A DNA stretch of 23,136 bases, taken from the IMG/VR virus record IMGVR_UViG_3300032273_000054, positions 1-23,136 of that record; one strand, written 5' to 3'. This stretch comes from a virus. A program made the translations under genes and the position numbers. This document shows, piece after piece, positions 3,480-22,407 of the stretch (the first letter of the stretch is position 1; every line of letters begins with the position of its first letter). Below the pieces are notes generated by a model. That model ran no database searches and was not told the DNA's origin. It saw nothing but the letters and a program-made list of their open reading frames with translations.

Positions 3480-3746
3480 TCATTTTATTTTTATTTTTTC
3501 TGAATCTTGAGAAATACCTGAAAATCCTTCTTTTATCCATAGTTTTTCTATGTCAAACCCTTTTTCGTCTAATTTTGCATATAAATTAGTACTTGGTTTG
3601 ATAGATCTAGCTATTGACGCCACATTTTTAGTCAAAACATTAAGGACTTTAACCTTACCACTAATTATTAATCCAGCTTCTTTTAAGACGTTTATGACTT
3701 TTTGCTCTGTTTCTCCTTCTAAAATATACATATAGTTATTCATCAC
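3480..3746 (-). pseudogene. Short TOPRIM-like (RloB-type) partner protein, probably internally deleted
   Basis: 88 codons, starting (GTG/ATG) inside the last codons of the ATPase gene, so the two are translationally coupled. The N-terminus YILEGETEQKVINVLKE has the EGxTE acidic motif of TOPRIM-like proteins paired with AAA ATPases (RloB-like and AbiLii-like). Known partners are about 180-220 residues. Here sequence after the first beta/alpha unit (ARSIKPSTNLY) jumps to what looks like a C-terminal segment (LDEKGFDIEKLW). The DxD-bearing middle part is missing. An in-frame internal deletion is therefore likely and catalytic function doubtful. It could also be a genuinely small adaptor protein. 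Confidence 0.5.
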
Positions 3747-4833
3747 TCATCAACTCACTAGCATATTCTTCCAGTAAAAAAGTATTAGGAATTGTTCCAA
3801 ACACATCATTTTCTACAGCATTTTTTAAAGATCGATTATTACGTTTTATTATAGATTCTGGTTTTACTGCTGTAATTTTGTCTGATTTTTTTAAAAAAAG
3901 AAATGAATGAATAGGTAAATTCATATCTAATAATTCCATATTGTGAGTTGTAAAGAATAATTGACTCTCTTTTCCTAACATTTCTATCATTAAATTAAAA
4001 ATAGCTATTTCTACATCACTTTGAATATAAGAAAAATTTTCATCTATATAATGAATTCCTTCTCTTAAAGCATTTATTGCGGATAATGATCTAGCTATTG
4101 AAATTCCTTCTACAGTTCCACTAGATAATCTATTTTTATTAACAATTTCTCCATCTTGAATAATAATTTTTTCATCTGAATTTTTAAAAGATATTAAAAA
4201 TGTATTTTTTGCTTCACTACTTTCTCTTATACTCTCAATAGATGGATCTAAAGTTCTTAATACAATATCTAATAATTTATTTGAAATCAAATGTCCACGG
4301 ACTGAAGTATCAGGGAAAGAAAAGCCCCAATGAAGATCTTTAATATCTATTTTTTCCAATCCTTCTAAAAAATTTAGATTATTATTTATGTTGAATTCTT
4401 CATAAATAATTTCTAATTTTTCTTTACATTTTTCATAATTGTCAGTTTTATTTATTTTACATTTTTTTATAATTAAAGTTGTTAATGCTCTATCAAAAAA
4501 AAGACACTCTATACTCCATAAATATTCCCCTTTAGAAACTAGATCTATTTTAAAGGAAGCTTCTTTTTGATTATTAGCAATTAAGGAAGTAACAGAATTT
4601 ATTACCTTGGTATCTATAAAATTAAAAATCCCTTTCATAACTCTTCCTAAAGAAGTTTTTCCTGAAGCATTAGCTCCCATTATTACGTTAACTCTTTTAA
4701 ATCTAAAATTTGGTTTGTCTTCAAGATATTCAAAAGGAATACTTGTATTTACAATTTTTTTAGGATAAGAAAAGTTAATTCTAAAATCTTCAAAACCTAA
4801 AATATTATCTAACTCAAGATTCATTATTATCAT
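3736..4833 (-). CDS. AAA (ABC/OLD-like) ATPase, probable phage-defence component
   Basis: 365 residues with a full ATP-binding-cassette set: Walker A GANASGKTS (53-61), signature-like LSSGT (236-240), Walker B with catalytic Glu in GIHYIDE (259-265), and switch His in FFTTHNMELL (295-298). This AAA_15/AAA_21 layout is seen in RloA-like and AbiLi-like ATPases and in Septu/PtuA-type defence proteins. These proteins sense infection and act with a TOPRIM or nuclease partner. Here the downstream coupled partner is short and looks damaged. The ribosome binding site GGAGG is 8 bases before the ATG at 4833, and a good promoter lies just upstream, so the unit is autonomous. The defence role is inferred from family and pairing. 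Confidence 0.8.
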   Translation of the reverse strand: MIIMNLELDNILGFEDFRINFSYPKKIVNTSIPFEYLEDKPNFRFKRVNVIMGANASGKTSLGRVMKGIFNFIDTKVINSVTSLIANNQKEASFKIDLVSKGEYLWSIECLFFDRALTTLIIKKCKINKTDNYEKCKEKLEIIYEEFNINNNLNFLEGLEKIDIKDLHWGFSFPDTSVRGHLISNKLLDIVLRTLDPSIESIRESSEAKNTFLISFKNSDEKIIIQDGEIVNKNRLSSGTVEGISIARSLSAINALREGIHYIDENFSYIQSDVEIAIFNLMIEMLGKESQLFFTTHNMELLDMNLPIHSFLFLKKSDKITAVKPESIIKRNNRSLKNAVENDVFGTIPNTFLLEEYASELMSDE

Positions 4834-7333: not shown

Positions 7334-7921
7334 CTAGTTATAATAGTAGTTAATTCGATCAGATCTTTTAGGATATATTTTTTCTATCGATATGTTTATG
7401 TTCGTATAATTATTAGGAACATCTTTCCAAGCTTTATGCCATACTTTAATATCAGCACTTTCATCTTCAGTTAATTTCTCTTCTATTCCCATAAAAATAT
7501 TATTAGCTAGTTTTTGATAAGCAGTGTATTCTTTTTCCCTTTGTGTTCGAGCTTTTTCTTTCTCACTATCTAAAGTTATTGTTCCTTCATTAATATAGTC
7601 TTGCCTAGTCTTGTCTACTATTTGTTCATCTACTATTTTTTGAGAGTAACTATCATAAGAAACTATCTTTCCATTGATAAGAACTTCTCCATCATTTAAA
7701 ACTCTATCTCCTCTTTCTAGTTTTTCTTCTTCAGTTGCACTTCTTATGGAATCACTTTCTTTTAGGTAAGTGATAAAATGAGGGAGATCTTCTCCATGAA
7801 ATTCTACTGCATTTCCTTCAAAATATTCTTTATAGGTTTCTATCTTTGTTTCTGATATTTCAAATACTAAAGAGACTCCTTCTTTAGCTTTTTCTCTATC
7901 TAAATAAATATATTTTTTCAT
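7334..7921 (-). CDS. Tail fibre assembly-like protein
   Basis: 195 residues from the ATG at 7921, chosen because GGAGG lies 8 bases upstream; this ATG overlaps the macro-domain stop as TAATG. The C-terminal part (LTEDESADIKVWHKAWKDVPNNY...IEKIYPKR) has the W...W.D.P layout common at the end of phage tail-fibre assembly chaperones, which help the fibre fold and attach. The N-terminal 130 residues are acidic and unassigned. It lies two genes after the tail fibre. Function is inferred from the short motif and position. Confidence 0.5.
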   Translation of the reverse strand: MKKYIYLDREKAKEGVSLVFEISETKIETYKEYFEGNAVEFHGEDLPHFITYLKESDSIRSATEEEKLERGDRVLNDGEVLINGKIVSYDSYSQKIVDEQIVDKTRQDYINEGTITLDSEKEKARTQREKEYTAYQKLANNIFMGIEEKLTEDESADIKVWHKAWKDVPNNYTNINISIEKIYPKRSDRINYYYN

Positions 7922-8490
7922 TATTTTATCCTCCATTCATCAACTTTAGAATCAAACCAAGTATTAGGAAAAGGTCTATTTATAAAATCATCATAAGCTT
8001 TTCTCATTTGCCTTGCTACTACAAATGGGTTCATTCCACCTACACCTGTTCCTAATCCAGGTATTCCTATATTTTTAATGTTTTTTTTATTTTTTATGGT
8101 ATTTAATATTGCTTTCATTGCTAAATATGGATTCAAATTTTCTGAAGAAAGAGATTGAGGAGTTCTCATTGTTGGTGCACAAACTACTGATTTTATAACT
8201 GTATTATTAGTTTTTATAATAACAGCTTCTCCAACTAGTAACTCTCCCATAGGTCTCTTTTTTATAATTGATTGTAATTCTTCCATAATATCCCATCCTA
8301 GATTTTCAGATATTAATAAGTCTAATCCTCCATCCATAAATCCAAATGAATTTGCAGGACTAATAATAGTATCAAAGTTTTGTGAGAATATATCTCCTAA
8401 AATTATTTTTATTTCTTTTACATCTTTAAAAGATTCTGAAAATGCTTGGTATAAAATAGGATCTATTGAAATTAATGAGATTTTTTTCAT
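7921..8490 (-). CDS. Macro-domain (ADP-ribose-binding) protein
   Basis: 189 residues from ATG 8490 (AGGAGG 8 bases upstream, TAATG overlap with the fibre gene). The macro-domain set is complete: GDIF near 32-35, ISPANSFGFMDGGLD at 43-57 (the Asn-containing ribose-binding loop), CAPTMR at 104-109, and the phosphate loop GIPGLGTGVGGM at 142-153. Macro domains bind ADP-ribose and often remove it from proteins, nucleic acids or O-acetyl-ADP-ribose. It is wedged between fibre and fibre-assembly genes and would be expressed late. Possible jobs are countering host ADP-ribosylation or NAD-based defence, or a structural role. The domain is certain; the role is inference. Confidence 0.88.
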   Translation of the reverse strand: MKKISLISIDPILYQAFSESFKDVKEIKIILGDIFSQNFDTIISPANSFGFMDGGLDLLISENLGWDIMEELQSIIKKRPMGELLVGEAVIIKTNNTVIKSVVCAPTMRTPQSLSSENLNPYLAMKAILNTIKNKKNIKNIGIPGLGTGVGGMNPFVVARQMRKAYDDFINRPFPNTWFDSKVDEWRIK

Positions 8491-9956
8491 TATGCTGTCC
8501 TCCTCCAAATATTAACCACTCTATATGGGTTCATGATATTAAATGCTGATCCACTACCACTACTTCTTGTAGTTCCTGAAATTGTATGATTATGATTTCC
8601 AGTTGTAGAAGTGTTAGGATTTTGATAATTTGTATATGGACTAGCTCCACCTGTATTTTCTCCACCTGCTGAATTTGTATAAGAAGTACGTGTAGAATTA
8701 TCTGACATAGTTTTAGTTTGAGCTCTACTACTTCCATATCCATATCCACCTGTTATACTGTGTGTATGTCCTGGTTGTGTATGTGCGTGATTATCAACTT
8801 TATGTCTATGATTCCCACCTTGATGATAGTGATTACCAGTAGTGTTAGTAGTTCCACTAAATCCATGGGTATGAGCAGCTATATTAGCTAATGTTAGTGC
8901 TACAGTTGATCTTCCACCTTGTGTTCCTAATGCATAACCATTAGAAGTTCCTAATAACACTCGACCTTCTAATTTGGTCCATGTAGTCCCTGTCCACTTA
9001 GTTGCAGGATTAGATGTAGATTCTGTTATCCAATAGTCTCCTACACCATGAGGACAACCTACTAAATTATCAAGACTATGATTATGATTTCCTCTAGGAA
9101 TATCATTGCTACCTGTTCCATAGTTTTTATTAAAAGCGCTACCTTTATTAAATTTAGGTTCTTTTTCACTAGCAAGAGAATAAGCTTCATTTGCTTTTGT
9201 CTGAGCTGAATTAGCTGTATTTTGAGCTGTTGTAGCTTTACTTAATGCTGCTGCGCCTTTATCATAAGCAATCTTTACCGCATATGCTGAAGCTACTAAT
9301 ACTTTACTAGTTGAACTGATTACATGAGAGAAACTTCTATTAAAAGCAGTTTTTTTAGCAAATGCAGCTTCTCCACCTAGATCAATAGCTCTTTTATTTC
9401 CTTCCATTACTGTTCCTAAAATAGTTCCAAATGGTTTATTGAAAGCTCCGTTCTTATTAAATATATTTTCCTTAGTTGCCAAACCTTCTACAAGGTCTTT
9501 TATGGTAGCATAAACATTACTTTGATCTATAACTGCATTGATAGTTGCTGCACTTGAAATGTAGGTGATGATATCTTCTACAGATTCAATTATTCCACTG
9601 GGTTCATTTGGAATTAAGTTAGGCGTATCTGTATTACAATAAGAATAGAGGACCTCTGTTCCATCTTCTCCCCTAGCAAAAACTCCTACTTCTCTTAAGT
9701 ATGTATCATCTATAAACCCCTTATTGTTAAAAGATATCCTTATCCTATACCCTCCATTAGGTAGTTTAGAGGTACTAGTGATACTTAAAATTTTAAAACT
9801 ATCTACTAAGGTAGTTAAATTTTCTTTATTTGTTCCTGGAGAAACTATTCCTTTACCGATCTCTACCTTGGTAAAAACTATTACTTCTCCTAATATAGCT
9901 CTAGCTAATAATTCCTTTCCTTTATTGGTAAGGATTGTTCCTGTATATTTAGCCAT
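8490..9956 (-). CDS. Phage tail fibre protein, tail-collar type with His-rich tip
   Basis: 488 residues. The N-terminus (MAKYTGTILTNKGKELLARA... to about 150) is the tail-collar fibre domain that joins the baseplate in P2/Mu-like phages. Residues 165-280 hold three spaced AFNK/AFNR units (170, 203, 273) and an Ala-rich coiled-coil stretch (235-265). The C-terminal part is Gly/Thr/Ser/Asn-rich with seven HxH pairs (291, 362, 376, 383, 390, 397, 455) and ends NPYRVVNIWRRTA, as many receptor-binding fibres do. In T4 gp37 such HxH pairs hold iron along the trimer axis. AGGAGG lies 5 bases before the start. Confidence 0.9.
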   Translation of the reverse strand: MAKYTGTILTNKGKELLARAILGEVIVFTKVEIGKGIVSPGTNKENLTTLVDSFKILSITSTSKLPNGGYRIRISFNNKGFIDDTYLREVGVFARGEDGTEVLYSYCNTDTPNLIPNEPSGIIESVEDIITYISSAATINAVIDQSNVYATIKDLVEGLATKENIFNKNGAFNKPFGTILGTVMEGNKRAIDLGGEAAFAKKTAFNRSFSHVISSTSKVLVASAYAVKIAYDKGAAALSKATTAQNTANSAQTKANEAYSLASEKEPKFNKGSAFNKNYGTGSNDIPRGNHNHSLDNLVGCPHGVGDYWITESTSNPATKWTGTTWTKLEGRVLLGTSNGYALGTQGGRSTVALTLANIAAHTHGFSGTTNTTGNHYHQGGNHRHKVDNHAHTQPGHTHSITGGYGYGSSRAQTKTMSDNSTRTSYTNSAGGENTGGASPYTNYQNPNTSTTGNHNHTISGTTRSSGSGSAFNIMNPYRVVNIWRRTA

Positions 9957-12448: not shown

Positions 12449-12460
12449 TGTCATCACCTC

Positions 12461-12480
12461 GATTTCGTTACTCGCGAAAT
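12461..12480. repeat. Copy 2 of the ATTTCG...CGAAAT palindromic motif
   Basis: Minus-strand reading ATTTCGCGAGTAACGAAATC, an imperfect palindrome. It ends directly before the ribosome binding site of the U-like gene. It matches the copies at 22385-22404 (18 of 20 bases) and 7011-7030 (17 of 20). Confidence 0.7.
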
Positions 12481-12493
12481 ATGAATCCTAAAT

Positions 12494-12525
12494 TTGACTT
12501 TTTGAGCATTTAAAGATACTATAAT
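12494..12525 (+). promoter_or_regulatory. Plus-strand promoter, unit A
   Basis: TTGACT (12494-12499) is followed at 17 bases by TACTAT (12517-12522) and at 20 bases by TATAAT (12520-12525). It is related to the sequence at 17798-17829: both have GACTTTT, a TTTAAA block and AAGATACTA in the same order and spacing. It points against the late operon. Confidence 0.45.
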
Positions 12526-12531
12526 TAAGCA

Positions 12532-12584
12532 TTCAATGCCTCAAAATTGTTTGTTTAAGGCAGGAATTTTTCCTGTCTTTTTTT
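12532..12584 (+). ncRNA. Candidate short plus-strand RNA, unit A, with terminator
   Basis: Between the promoter-like element and 12584 there is no ORF, only a 5-bp TGCCT/AGGCA pairing and a terminator: GGCAGGAA (12559-12566) with TTCCTGTC (12570-12577, one G-T pair), then seven T. The minus strand lacks a T-run here, so late transcription should pass. The product would be about 55 nt. Confidence 0.4.
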
Positions 12585-12587
12585 ATT

Positions 12588-17275: not shown

Positions 17276-17773
17276 TAGGTATCGCCTCCAACCAATTAAC
17301 CAATTCATTTAATCGCATTTTATAGAAAAAATCCGCCCCACTTTTTGTTAACTTTCCTGCCATTAGGATAGATTCTCTTAAATCCTTAATCTTTTTTTTT
17401 GAGTTGAGATCTATCCTAGTAAGAAACCCTTGGTACATTCAGTTACCGTTTTAAAATCTTTAGATTTTAGCTCTAATATTGCCTCAAATGGCATTCCTGA
17501 AGCTTTCGCTGCAATAGCTGCTTGATATGCAGTTGAATAATTTGTATCTGGTAAAGGAGTATAAAATCTTCCTAATGCATCACTTTCAGCATCACAGATA
17601 TCTACTCCAGTAAGTGAATTAAAATCTAATTCTAATTTCTCTATTTTTTGATCATTAAAACTGATAGAAGCTCCTAAAGTAATTATTATGATTTCATTTT
17701 TTATTTCTATTTCACTCTTTTTTTTAACTTTTTTCACCTCTGATTTTCCTGCTACTTGTTCGTCTTTAGGCAT
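17265..17773 (-). CDS. E': E' frameshifted tail assembly chaperone (-1 product)
   Basis: Reading E to the slippery heptamer and then shifting -1 at 17423-17429 adds about 52 residues, giving a product of about 169. The added part (RIDLNSKKKIKDLRESILMAGKL... ending ELVNWLEAIPSEY, stop at 17265) reads as a real protein domain and fills what otherwise looks like a 100-base gap. P2 E/E' and lambda G/GT chaperones coat the tape measure in this way. E' overlaps the tape-measure start by 11 bases, the usual position. Confidence 0.85.
17411..17773 (-). CDS. E: Tail assembly chaperone E
   Basis: 120 residues. A Lys-rich start (about residues 1-25), a beta segment IIITLGASISFNDQKIEKLELDFNSLTG, and an alpha part (TAYQAAIAAKASGMPFEAILELKSKDFKTV) as in the P2 gpE-type family. 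It lies between tail tube and tape measure and carries a slippery heptamer at its last codons. AGGAGG is 7 bases before ATG 17773. Confidence 0.85.
   Translation of the reverse strand: MPKDEQVAGKSEVKKVKKKSEIEIKNEIIIITLGASISFNDQKIEKLELDFNSLTGVDICDAESDALGRFYTPLPDTNYSTAYQAAIAAKASGMPFEAILELKSKDFKTVTECTKGFLLG
17423..17429 (-). promoter_or_regulatory. Programmed -1 frameshift site GGGTTTC
   Basis: On the minus strand the zero frame reads AAG GGT TTC, i.e. G GGT TTC, the canonical X XXY YYZ form. It lies three sense codons before the E stop (TAG at 17411). A -1 slip opens the E' frame. Confidence 0.85.
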
Positions 17774-17797
17774 ATTATTCCTCCTCCAAAATTTAAG

Positions 17798-17829
17798 TCG
17801 ACTTTTAGTTTAAATTAAGATACTAATAT
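17798..17829 (+). promoter_or_regulatory. Plus-strand promoter-like element, unit B
   Basis: TCGACT (17798-17803), 17 bases, TACTAA (17821-17826), with TAATAT 20 bases downstream of the first hexamer. It shares order and spacing of GACTTTT / TTTAAA / AAGATACTA with the element at 12494-12525. Confidence 0.35.
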
Positions 17830-17911
17830 ATGTGTATTAATATTACTCCCCAGTAATTATTGGTATCAACTTCCGGTAATGAGCTTTCGTTTAAATACGA
17901 AAGCTCTTTTT
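17830..17911 (+). ncRNA. Candidate small RNA, unit B, CCCC-loop hairpin plus terminator
   Basis: Three hairpins in a row and no ORF. The first is ATTACT-CCCC-AGTAAT (17842-17857). The second pairs TTATTGG (17857-17863) with CCGGTAA (17873-17879), two G-U pairs. The third is a terminator with a 10-bp perfect stem, GAGCTTTCGT (17881-17890) with ACGAAAGCTC (17897-17906), then T5. There is no T-run on the minus strand. The CCCC loop could pair with Shine-Dalgarno purines, as C-rich loops of Gram-positive small RNAs do. Confidence 0.45.
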
Positions 17912-17914
17912 ATC

Positions 17915-17943
17915 TTGACATAAGAGTTTTATAGTGTGATAAT
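17915..17943 (+). promoter_or_regulatory. Strong sigma-70 promoter, unit C
   Basis: A perfect TTGACA (17915-17920), a 17-base spacer, GATAAT (17938-17943) and an extended -10 TGT directly before it. It is the best promoter in the window, and it points away from the late operon direction. Confidence 0.75.
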
Positions 17944-17949
17944 AACTTT

Positions 17950-18015
17950 AGTGTTACACCCCAACCGTAACACCTTTTTGAAGCTCTAGTTTGGACTATT
18001 CTAGAGCTTTTTTTA
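17950..18015 (+). ncRNA. Candidate small RNA, unit C, about 65 nt
   Basis: From the predicted start there are two hairpins and no ORF. GTGTTAC (17951-17957) pairs perfectly with GTAACAC (17967-17973) around a 9-nt loop ACCCCAACC. A terminator follows: AAGCTCTAG (17981-17989) with CTAGAGCTT (18001-18009), then seven T. The C-rich loop again suits pairing with ribosome binding sites. It ends just downstream of the tail-tube gene stop and lies antisense to the tube-E intergenic mRNA. Confidence 0.6.
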
Positions 18016-18018
18016 TTC

Positions 18019-18534
18019 TTATAGAAAATCATCATCTTCTAGATAATTAATTCCATCTACTACAAATTTATTGTTTAATTTATCTATATGAAGAGTTTCT
18101 ATCTCGTCAATAAATACTCTTAAACTGATTACTTCCATTTCTGCTTCTGTATCCATAGCTTTAGCGGTTTCTGCTTTCCCTAAGTTTTTATTCTTAGGAG
18201 TTACCTTAGCCATTATTCTAATCTTTCTATTTCTCATCTTTCCAATTGGGCTTCCTGGATCAACCATCTGAAGATTACCTCTAAAGGCTAACTGATGTGT
18301 GATTGGTGCAAGAAGTGTTGTAAATTGAGCATTAACAGCTCTTTTCTTTATCTTCATAGTCATTGATTTAGTCAGTCCTGCGATAGGAACTTCTATCTCT
18401 CCTGCTATTCCTGAACCTGTAACTGTATCTGTCATAAATTGGATATTAGGTAGTTCTAAATCTACTGTTCCTACTTCTCTTAATGCATTCATGTATAAAC
18501 TAAATCCTTGTAAGGATACTGGAAATCCATTCAT
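18019..18534 (-). CDS. FII: Major tail tube protein
   Basis: 171 residues, as P2 gpFII. The N-terminus MNGFPVSLQGFSLYMNALREVGTVDLELPNIQF and the central IEVPIAGLTKSMTMKI match contractile-phage tube proteins. Many copies form the inner tube through which DNA passes. The start overlaps the sheath stop (TAATG) with GGAGG upstream; expression with sheath is expected. Confidence 0.92.
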   Translation of the reverse strand: MNGFPVSLQGFSLYMNALREVGTVDLELPNIQFMTDTVTGSGIAGEIEVPIAGLTKSMTMKIKKRAVNAQFTTLLAPITHQLAFRGNLQMVDPGSPIGKMRNRKIRIMAKVTPKNKNLGKAETAKAMDTEAEMEVISLRVFIDEIETLHIDKLNNKFVVDGINYLEDDDFL

Positions 18535-20884: not shown

Positions 20885-21778
20885 TTAGTCTCTAAGATCT
20901 ATTAGTGGCGATCCTCCAGAAGTTACTTTTGGTAATTGGCCATCCCATCTTAAAATTTGCTCATATTTGATTAACTCAGTAGATAAAGATTTTTTCTTTA
21001 GGTCATTAGCTTTAGCCTGGGCTTTTGCTACAGTTAATATTCTTTCCGCTTCTGCTTCTGCCTGAATCTTTTTAACATTAGCTTTTCCCTGTTCCTGGAT
21101 AGCATTTCTTTCTGCTTCAATTTGAGCTTTTTGTTTTTCTATTTTTTGTCTTTCTAATTCTTGTTGAGTATTTACTCTTTGTTGTATAACAGTAGCAGTG
21201 GCTTTATCTAATCCTATTCTTGAAAAGTTAACAGACTCAATGATTATTCCATCTTTAGCAAACTTTTCTTTAATATGTTGATAAGTTTTTAAGTTTAAAT
21301 CCGCTCGTCTAGATCCATATATATCTAGAACACTAAATTTAGAAGTTACTTCAGAAACATACGCTTTTATCTTTACTCTGGTGTATGTATTTTGAATAAC
21401 TTCACCACTTTTACCTTTAAATCGAGTAAAGATTTTAGCTACCTTATTTTCATCATATCTATATGAATACTCTAAATCCACATTGACCATTTTCCCATCT
21501 GAAGTAGGAACGATGAAAGAGTCGTTATCTTCTGATCCTTCTCTTTCGTCTGCAGATAGATATGCCTGTTCAGTTCCAACGGTGTATTCTGTTACATTTT
21601 TAAAAGGATTGATAAGGTTGTACCCTTGAGTTAAAACTTTTTCTTGAACTCCTCCATTAGGACTGTATACAACTCCTACATATCCTGCTGATATTTTATG
21701 ACATGATTTGAATGTCATTAATATCCCTATAACTATTATCACCATTACCGCGCTAAACTTTTTCCCATTAATTATCAT
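20885..21778 (-). CDS. SPFH/band-7 (prohibitin/HflC-like) membrane protein
   Basis: 297 residues. N-terminal TM anchor at about 8-23 (FSAVMVIIVIGILMTF), then an SPFH domain (AGYVGVVYSPNGGVQEKVLTQGYNLINPF... to about 185, with the typical VNVDLEYSYRYDENKV and the GIIIESVNFSRIGL end). A long Glu/Lys/Ala/Gln coiled coil (about 200-255, ERQKIEKQKAQIEAERNA) and a short hydrophilic tail follow. The family forms large membrane rings or cages; HflK/HflC restrain the FtsH protease. It is unusual inside a tail gene cluster. AGGAGG lies 6 bases before ATG 21778. It is co-transcribed with structural genes, so late expression is expected; role unknown. Confidence 0.88.
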   Translation of the reverse strand: MIINGKKFSAVMVIIVIGILMTFKSCHKISAGYVGVVYSPNGGVQEKVLTQGYNLINPFKNVTEYTVGTEQAYLSADEREGSEDNDSFIVPTSDGKMVNVDLEYSYRYDENKVAKIFTRFKGKSGEVIQNTYTRVKIKAYVSEVTSKFSVLDIYGSRRADLNLKTYQHIKEKFAKDGIIIESVNFSRIGLDKATATVIQQRVNTQQELERQKIEKQKAQIEAERNAIQEQGKANVKKIQAEAEAERILTVAKAQAKANDLKKKSLSTELIKYEQILRWDGQLPKVTSGGSPLIDLRD

Positions 21779-22348: not shown

Positions 22349-22365
22349 AAGATTTCACCTTGGGT

Positions 22366-22404
22366 ATTTCGTGAGTCCCGAAATGATTTCGGGACTCGCG
22401 AAAT
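22366..22404. repeat. Copies 3 and 4 of the ATTTCG...CGAAAT motif in head-to-head array
   Basis: 22366-22385 reads ATTTCGTGAGTCCCGAAATG on the plus strand and 22385-22404 reads ATTTCGCGAGTCCCGAAATC on the minus strand. Together they form an almost perfect inverted repeat of about 38 bases in the gap between the connector and Z-like genes. There is no T-run on either side, so it is not a simple terminator. Confidence 0.75.
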
Positions 22405-22407
22405 TGA

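Follow-up and report, generated by a model that had tools for sequence, protein, structure and literature searches.

The 245-bp gap between the tail tube and tail assembly chaperone genes of a marine fusobacterial prophage (positions 17774–18018) is probably an insertion hotspot for noncoding morons, that is, self-contained small RNA (sRNA) genes that carry their own promoters and would act in trans. The window, by which we mean the whole analysed stretch of 23,136 nucleotides, is IMG/VR virus record IMGVR_UViG_3300032273_000054, and its late operon lies on the minus strand. The tail tube protein of the window is closest to proteins of IMG/VR contigs (90–95%), some of them prophages from a single isolate genome; its next matches are in Propionigenium maris and a Fusobacteriaceae MAG (68–81%). 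The nearest genomes are Psychrilyobacter-like, a genus name that is presumptive.

An earlier note on this DNA described two plus-strand units in the gap, hereafter called units B and C, each composed of a promoter, a hairpin and a terminator and free of open reading frames. The coordinates and elements of both units are confirmed (Table 1), no convincing ORF was found in either, and both hairpin loops contain CCCC. The near-consensus extended −10 promoter claimed for unit C matches the consensus at 11 of 12 positions and is the top match across the late region. The promoter-like element claimed for unit B is also present, although its −35 element is degenerate: the relatives of unit B have TTGACT (family promoter TTGACT-18-AATAAT). 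The predicted RNA of unit B folds at −24.0 kcal/mol (z −5.8 versus shuffles) and that of unit C at −19.8 kcal/mol (z −5.5 versus shuffles). The CCCC of the unit B loop, at 17848–17851, lies inside the subfamily loop motif CCCAGU.

Table 1. Features of the two late-operon gaps and of the genes that flank the tube/chaperone gap.
Feature	Position	Strand	Basis or remark
Third unit	12494–12583	+	TTGACT promoter; terminator stem 12557–12579; terminator scan, weak R1 match
Conserved CATTCAATGCCTCAAAATTGTTT in third unit	12530–12552	+	kept in G056, G060 (twice) and G002
Tail assembly chaperone (gpE-like)	17411–17773	−	downstream of gap; phrog_3140 2.7e-19; Pfam PF10109 score slightly under cut-off
Unit B, whole	17798–17914	+	RNA family R1 member, 97.5 bits; among the 10 sequences that built the model
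Unit B promoter, TCGACT-18 bp-ACTAAT	17798–17827	+	family alignment A6; weak −35 TCGACT 17798–17803; −10-like ACTAAT 17822–17827
Unit B 5′ hairpin	17834–17867	+	fold; covariation
Unit B intrinsic terminator	17881–17911	+	stem 17881–17906, then T run
Unit C, whole	17915–18015	+	promoter, hairpin, terminator
Unit C promoter, TTGACA-17-TG-GATAAT	17915–17943	+	sequence; TTGACA 17915–17920, 17-bp spacer, TG and GATAAT 17938–17943
Unit C hairpin, GTGTTAC-ACCCCAACC-GTAACAC	17951–17973	+	fold; loop ACCCCAACC
Unit C intrinsic terminator	17981–18015	+	fold and terminator scan
Tail tube gene (FII)	18019–18534	−	upstream of gap in late operon; Pfam PF04985 9e-33

Unit B is a member of R1, an RNA family for which a covariance model was built from 10 units. 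Sister Psychrilyobacter-like prophages carry one to three units of like layout in the tube/chaperone gap: TTGACT, 16–18 bp, a TAATAAT-like −10 element, a hairpin, a linker and a terminator, the loop of which is often UGACU(U/A)U. R1 matches with E ≤ 1e-5 occur in only 5 of 61 Propionigenium-family genomes, and every one of them lies in a tube gap or a prophage remnant. In the Rfam search, no unit scored above the gathering threshold, and permissive E-values returned chance matches only. R1 is an RNA family of fusobacterial prophages without an Rfam entry. In addition, the gap DNA has no meaningful match among phage and plasmid records, and two terminator/promoter pattern scans of the viral contigs returned the known loci and no new ones.

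We examined covariation in a MAFFT alignment of 17 units, with 24 pairs in two helices. Across the alignment 96.3% of the cells are paired, and 13 pairs have changed on both sides, as compared to 5.9 in shuffles (0 of 500 shuffles). When the partner strand is slid by 1–3 columns, the pairing falls to 40–53%, but the structure was derived from the same sequences that were tested, and part of the excess over the slid versions is therefore expected. The covariation argument accordingly stands on the comparison with shuffles and on the body helix: the terminator helix holds most of the covariation, and the body helix has 4 of its 10 pairs changed on both sides, with 95% paired. The alignment contains 40 G–U cells versus 4 A–C cells, which indicates that it is the plus-strand transcript, the antisense of the late operon, that folds. 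Identity across the 17 units is 70–80% in the stems, 45% in the loop and 34% in the linker, the loop and linker thus being the most variable transcribed regions. The CCCAGU loop is common to six units, and the CCCC run is found in the window only. A search for covarying stems and conserved CCCC loops had been proposed in the earlier note; the stems of the unit B family do covary, while the C run is not conserved and unit C is without relatives to compare.

Unit C matches R1 weakly (27.3 bits, E 0.016), an exact search of the viral contigs for its hairpin gave no match, and a comparison of its body against all loci revealed no relative. It is an orphan unit, a candidate defined by its promoter, fold and terminator. 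Because unit C has no relatives beyond the weak R1 match, the statements on conservation concern unit B and its family.

A further conserved plus-strand unit is present in a second gap of the window's late operon, at 12458–12587; this third unit was absent from the earlier note. The 23 bases with which its transcript is predicted to begin recur almost unchanged in four other copies, and the G056 prophage holds a series of such units in its second gap. A small minus-strand ORF across the third unit was rejected, as its start codon is not conserved in L110. Another late-operon gap contains a long near-perfect inverted repeat, TTTCGTGAGTCCCGAAA-TGA-TTTCGGGACTCGCGAAA, at 22349–22407.

The tube/chaperone junction is occupied differently in related prophages. 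Those without a unit have short gaps (9 bp in L044, 44 bp in L010 and 48 bp in L036), and the tube gaps of L035 (Propionigenium) and L012, both prophages of the Propionigenium type, contain unrelated promoter-hairpin-terminator units. Morons are defined by their insertion pattern, in which relatives have no insert or a different one (PMC3573128), and this is the pattern found at the junction; moreover, the units are oriented opposite to the surrounding genes and end in their own intrinsic terminators. The GC content of the gap insert (0.316) does not deviate from that of the surroundings (0.28–0.38); a deviating base composition is an often quoted but non-required moron trait, which is absent from the definition in PMC3573128. 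The pid locus of P22 (PMC3573128) is likewise a junction insert that is absent or different in relatives, opposite to the late genes, and equipped with an intrinsic terminator. However, pid encodes a protein, whereas the units of the window family are noncoding, form tandem arrays and share an RNA scaffold. The missing or unrelated inserts elsewhere, together with the retention of the units in decayed prophages, make noncoding morons the best reading of the units.

The strong R1 matches outside the tube gaps fall in such decayed prophages. In two species (G060 and G056), a remnant adjoins the same grd genes and retains one unit. From the −35 element through the terminator, the two units are identical at 112 of 118 positions (95%), with identical loops, and the neighbouring block containing the grd genes is 92.5% identical; the remnant flanks of 350 bp and 180 bp have only 57% and 69% identity with many gaps, and the surroundings are otherwise unalignable. 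The unit and flank identities differ with a Fisher p of 1.5e-15, a value that overstates the precision, as the flank comparison mixes substitution, deletion and non-homologous sequence. A small ORF (~65 aa) beside the remnant unit, at ~6500–6837 of L097 and in the matching part of L095, is ~95% identical between the species and is the sole other conserved block in the grd remnant. In the G057 remnant, one unit from each gap survives, ~120 bp apart, with the intervening tail genes lost, and these two unit blocks are the parts that can be aligned to the G060 remnant. The remnant units retain 23–24 of the 24 pairs, while the nearest intact unit, mutated at the observed divergence, retains 15–20 on average. 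This test has less force than it might seem to have, as some of the divergence may have arisen before the decay. The preservation of RNA genes while the surrounding prophage decayed offers a natural test, and it suggests that the host bacterium probably benefits from the RNA. The covarying stems, the plus-strand pairing and the persistence in dead prophages also lend support to the proposal of the earlier note that these are plus-strand small-RNA genes that have promoters of their own and do not depend on the late operon, and they imply that the RNAs probably act beyond their own operon.

How would these RNAs act? Each unit would be the gene for an RNA of ~65–90 nt, with a housekeeping-type promoter, a 5′ hairpin and a terminator hairpin. 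Judging from the promoter sequences, the units would be transcribed in the lysogen during the silence of the late genes, and the RNA may then pair in trans by means of the 5′ hairpin loop and the unpaired linker. Two roles appear about equally plausible. When a related phage enters the cell, the RNA may pair with its late transcripts, which bear the complements of the units, and thereby cause superinfection exclusion; or the RNA may control host mRNAs or sRNAs, as a form of lysogenic conversion. We slightly favour superinfection exclusion, since the loops differ from phage to phage on a scaffold that is retained. Variability in the loop and linker is easier to reconcile with recognition of particular phages than with one conserved target in the host; the two grd remnants, however, share the same loop. 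G056 and G060 were searched for exact copies of the 11-mer complementary to the remnant loop, and apart from the units themselves they share no such site. In the second-gap unit, the conserved stretch has a complement that resembles a ribosome-binding site (RBS) with start codon (GAGG-6-ATG). This target was rejected: the sites examined, one in a tuf-like sequence and the others inside apparent ORFs, lack a convincing RBS context.

An exclusion role has a precedent in STnc6030, an antisense RNA of prophage BTP1 for which superinfection exclusion was reported (PMC7067206). Both STnc6030 and the units are prophage RNAs antisense to late tail genes; position and strand polarity both set the units antisense to the late transcript. 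STnc6030, however, is ~500–790 nt long and overlaps coding genes (PMC7067206), whereas the units are ~65–90 nt, intergenic and built on a hairpin scaffold. A bolder proposal is a phage-borne antisense immunity array, in which one scaffold carries interchangeable loops, units are gained and lost singly at the tail junction, each loop matches a late transcript from a rival phage, and the host keeps the array as a memory-like defence after the prophage decays; we regard this as a rather unlikely elaboration.

Might the units instead serve their own operon only? As cis-acting antisense RNAs, they would tune or insulate it by removing late mRNA that leaks through or by stopping antisense read-through. 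They lie between tail genes, in antisense orientation to the late transcript, and the plus-strand terminators keep antisense transcripts from the tube gene. Nevertheless, the units survive intact at sites where the operon has been deleted or reduced to pseudogenes, so purely local control cannot be their sole role, and many related prophages have no units; we consider cis-only action unlikely. The earlier note had regarded the CCCC loop as a seed that blocks ribosome-binding sites. RsaE/RoxS-like sRNAs carry a conserved, C-rich unpaired seed complementary to the Shine-Dalgarno sequence, and no such conserved seed is found in the units. Although C-rich loops occur in the window and in the six-member CCCAGU subfamily, the loop is highly variable across the family, and the energies of the loop–RBS duplexes in the window's operon are no better than those of shuffled loops; the seed reading is thus unsupported, and sRNAs of this type seem improbable here. 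GGGG occurs in 1 of 23 RBS regions, and the statement that almost every gene has GGAGG was too strong, since it holds for 10 of 23 genes with starts as called.

It is very improbable that the units are chance or terminator-only elements with no functional RNA body. Promoter matches by themselves mean little in AT-rich DNA (83 were observed over the AT-rich late region versus 82.5 expected), and the terminator helix dominates the covariation; but the body helix covaries as well, and the conserved block in the remnants extends from the −35 element to the terminator. Moreover, the gap has two strong (at least 9 bp) plus-strand terminators, a number reached in 0 of 1000 dinucleotide shuffles, and the gaps of 11 unit-bearing prophages contain 19 plus-strand versus 4 minus-strand terminators. 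Finally, the units are small, repeat-like RNAs carried by phages and have conserved hairpins, as might be expected of RNA anti-CRISPRs (Racrs), which mimic CRISPR repeats. An identity as Racrs is very improbable, since Cas1 is missing from G056, G057, G060 and G061, all of which bear units; in addition, the units are two-hairpin promoter-terminator genes with no match to an Rfam CRISPR repeat.

Prophage sRNAs and morons are each already known. In E. coli, the AgvB and AsxR anti-sRNAs (PMC4104026) and the Pas sRNAs (PMC13192938) are small prophage-encoded RNAs like the units, and the Pas genes likewise sit next to structural genes of the phage, with diversifying sequences and differing copy numbers (PMC13192938). 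The units differ from both in having no Rfam relation, a Fusobacteriota host and a fixed tube/chaperone gap. What is new is the noncoding moron array at a fixed tail junction in Fusobacteriota, with tandem units, one shared scaffold, variable loops and no Rfam match: these morons would bear RNA instead of protein. In the library searched, no paper names both Psychrilyobacter and prophage; culturable Psychrilyobacter strains make the function of the prophage sRNAs directly testable.

Several other features of the window deserve mention. Close to the end of the prophage, an AAA ATPase gene at 3736–4833, followed by a short ORF, matches the defence models AbiLi (2.7e-24) and AriA (9.5e-9) and is accessory or defence-like in character. 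A macro-domain protein (7921–8508; Pfam 7e-14, weak DarG match) is encoded among the tail fibre genes, and an SPFH/Band 7 protein (20885–21778) within the structural gene operon. A c-di-GMP-I riboswitch (1651–1727; Rfam 55 bits) lies directly upstream of an alcohol dehydrogenase-like gene.
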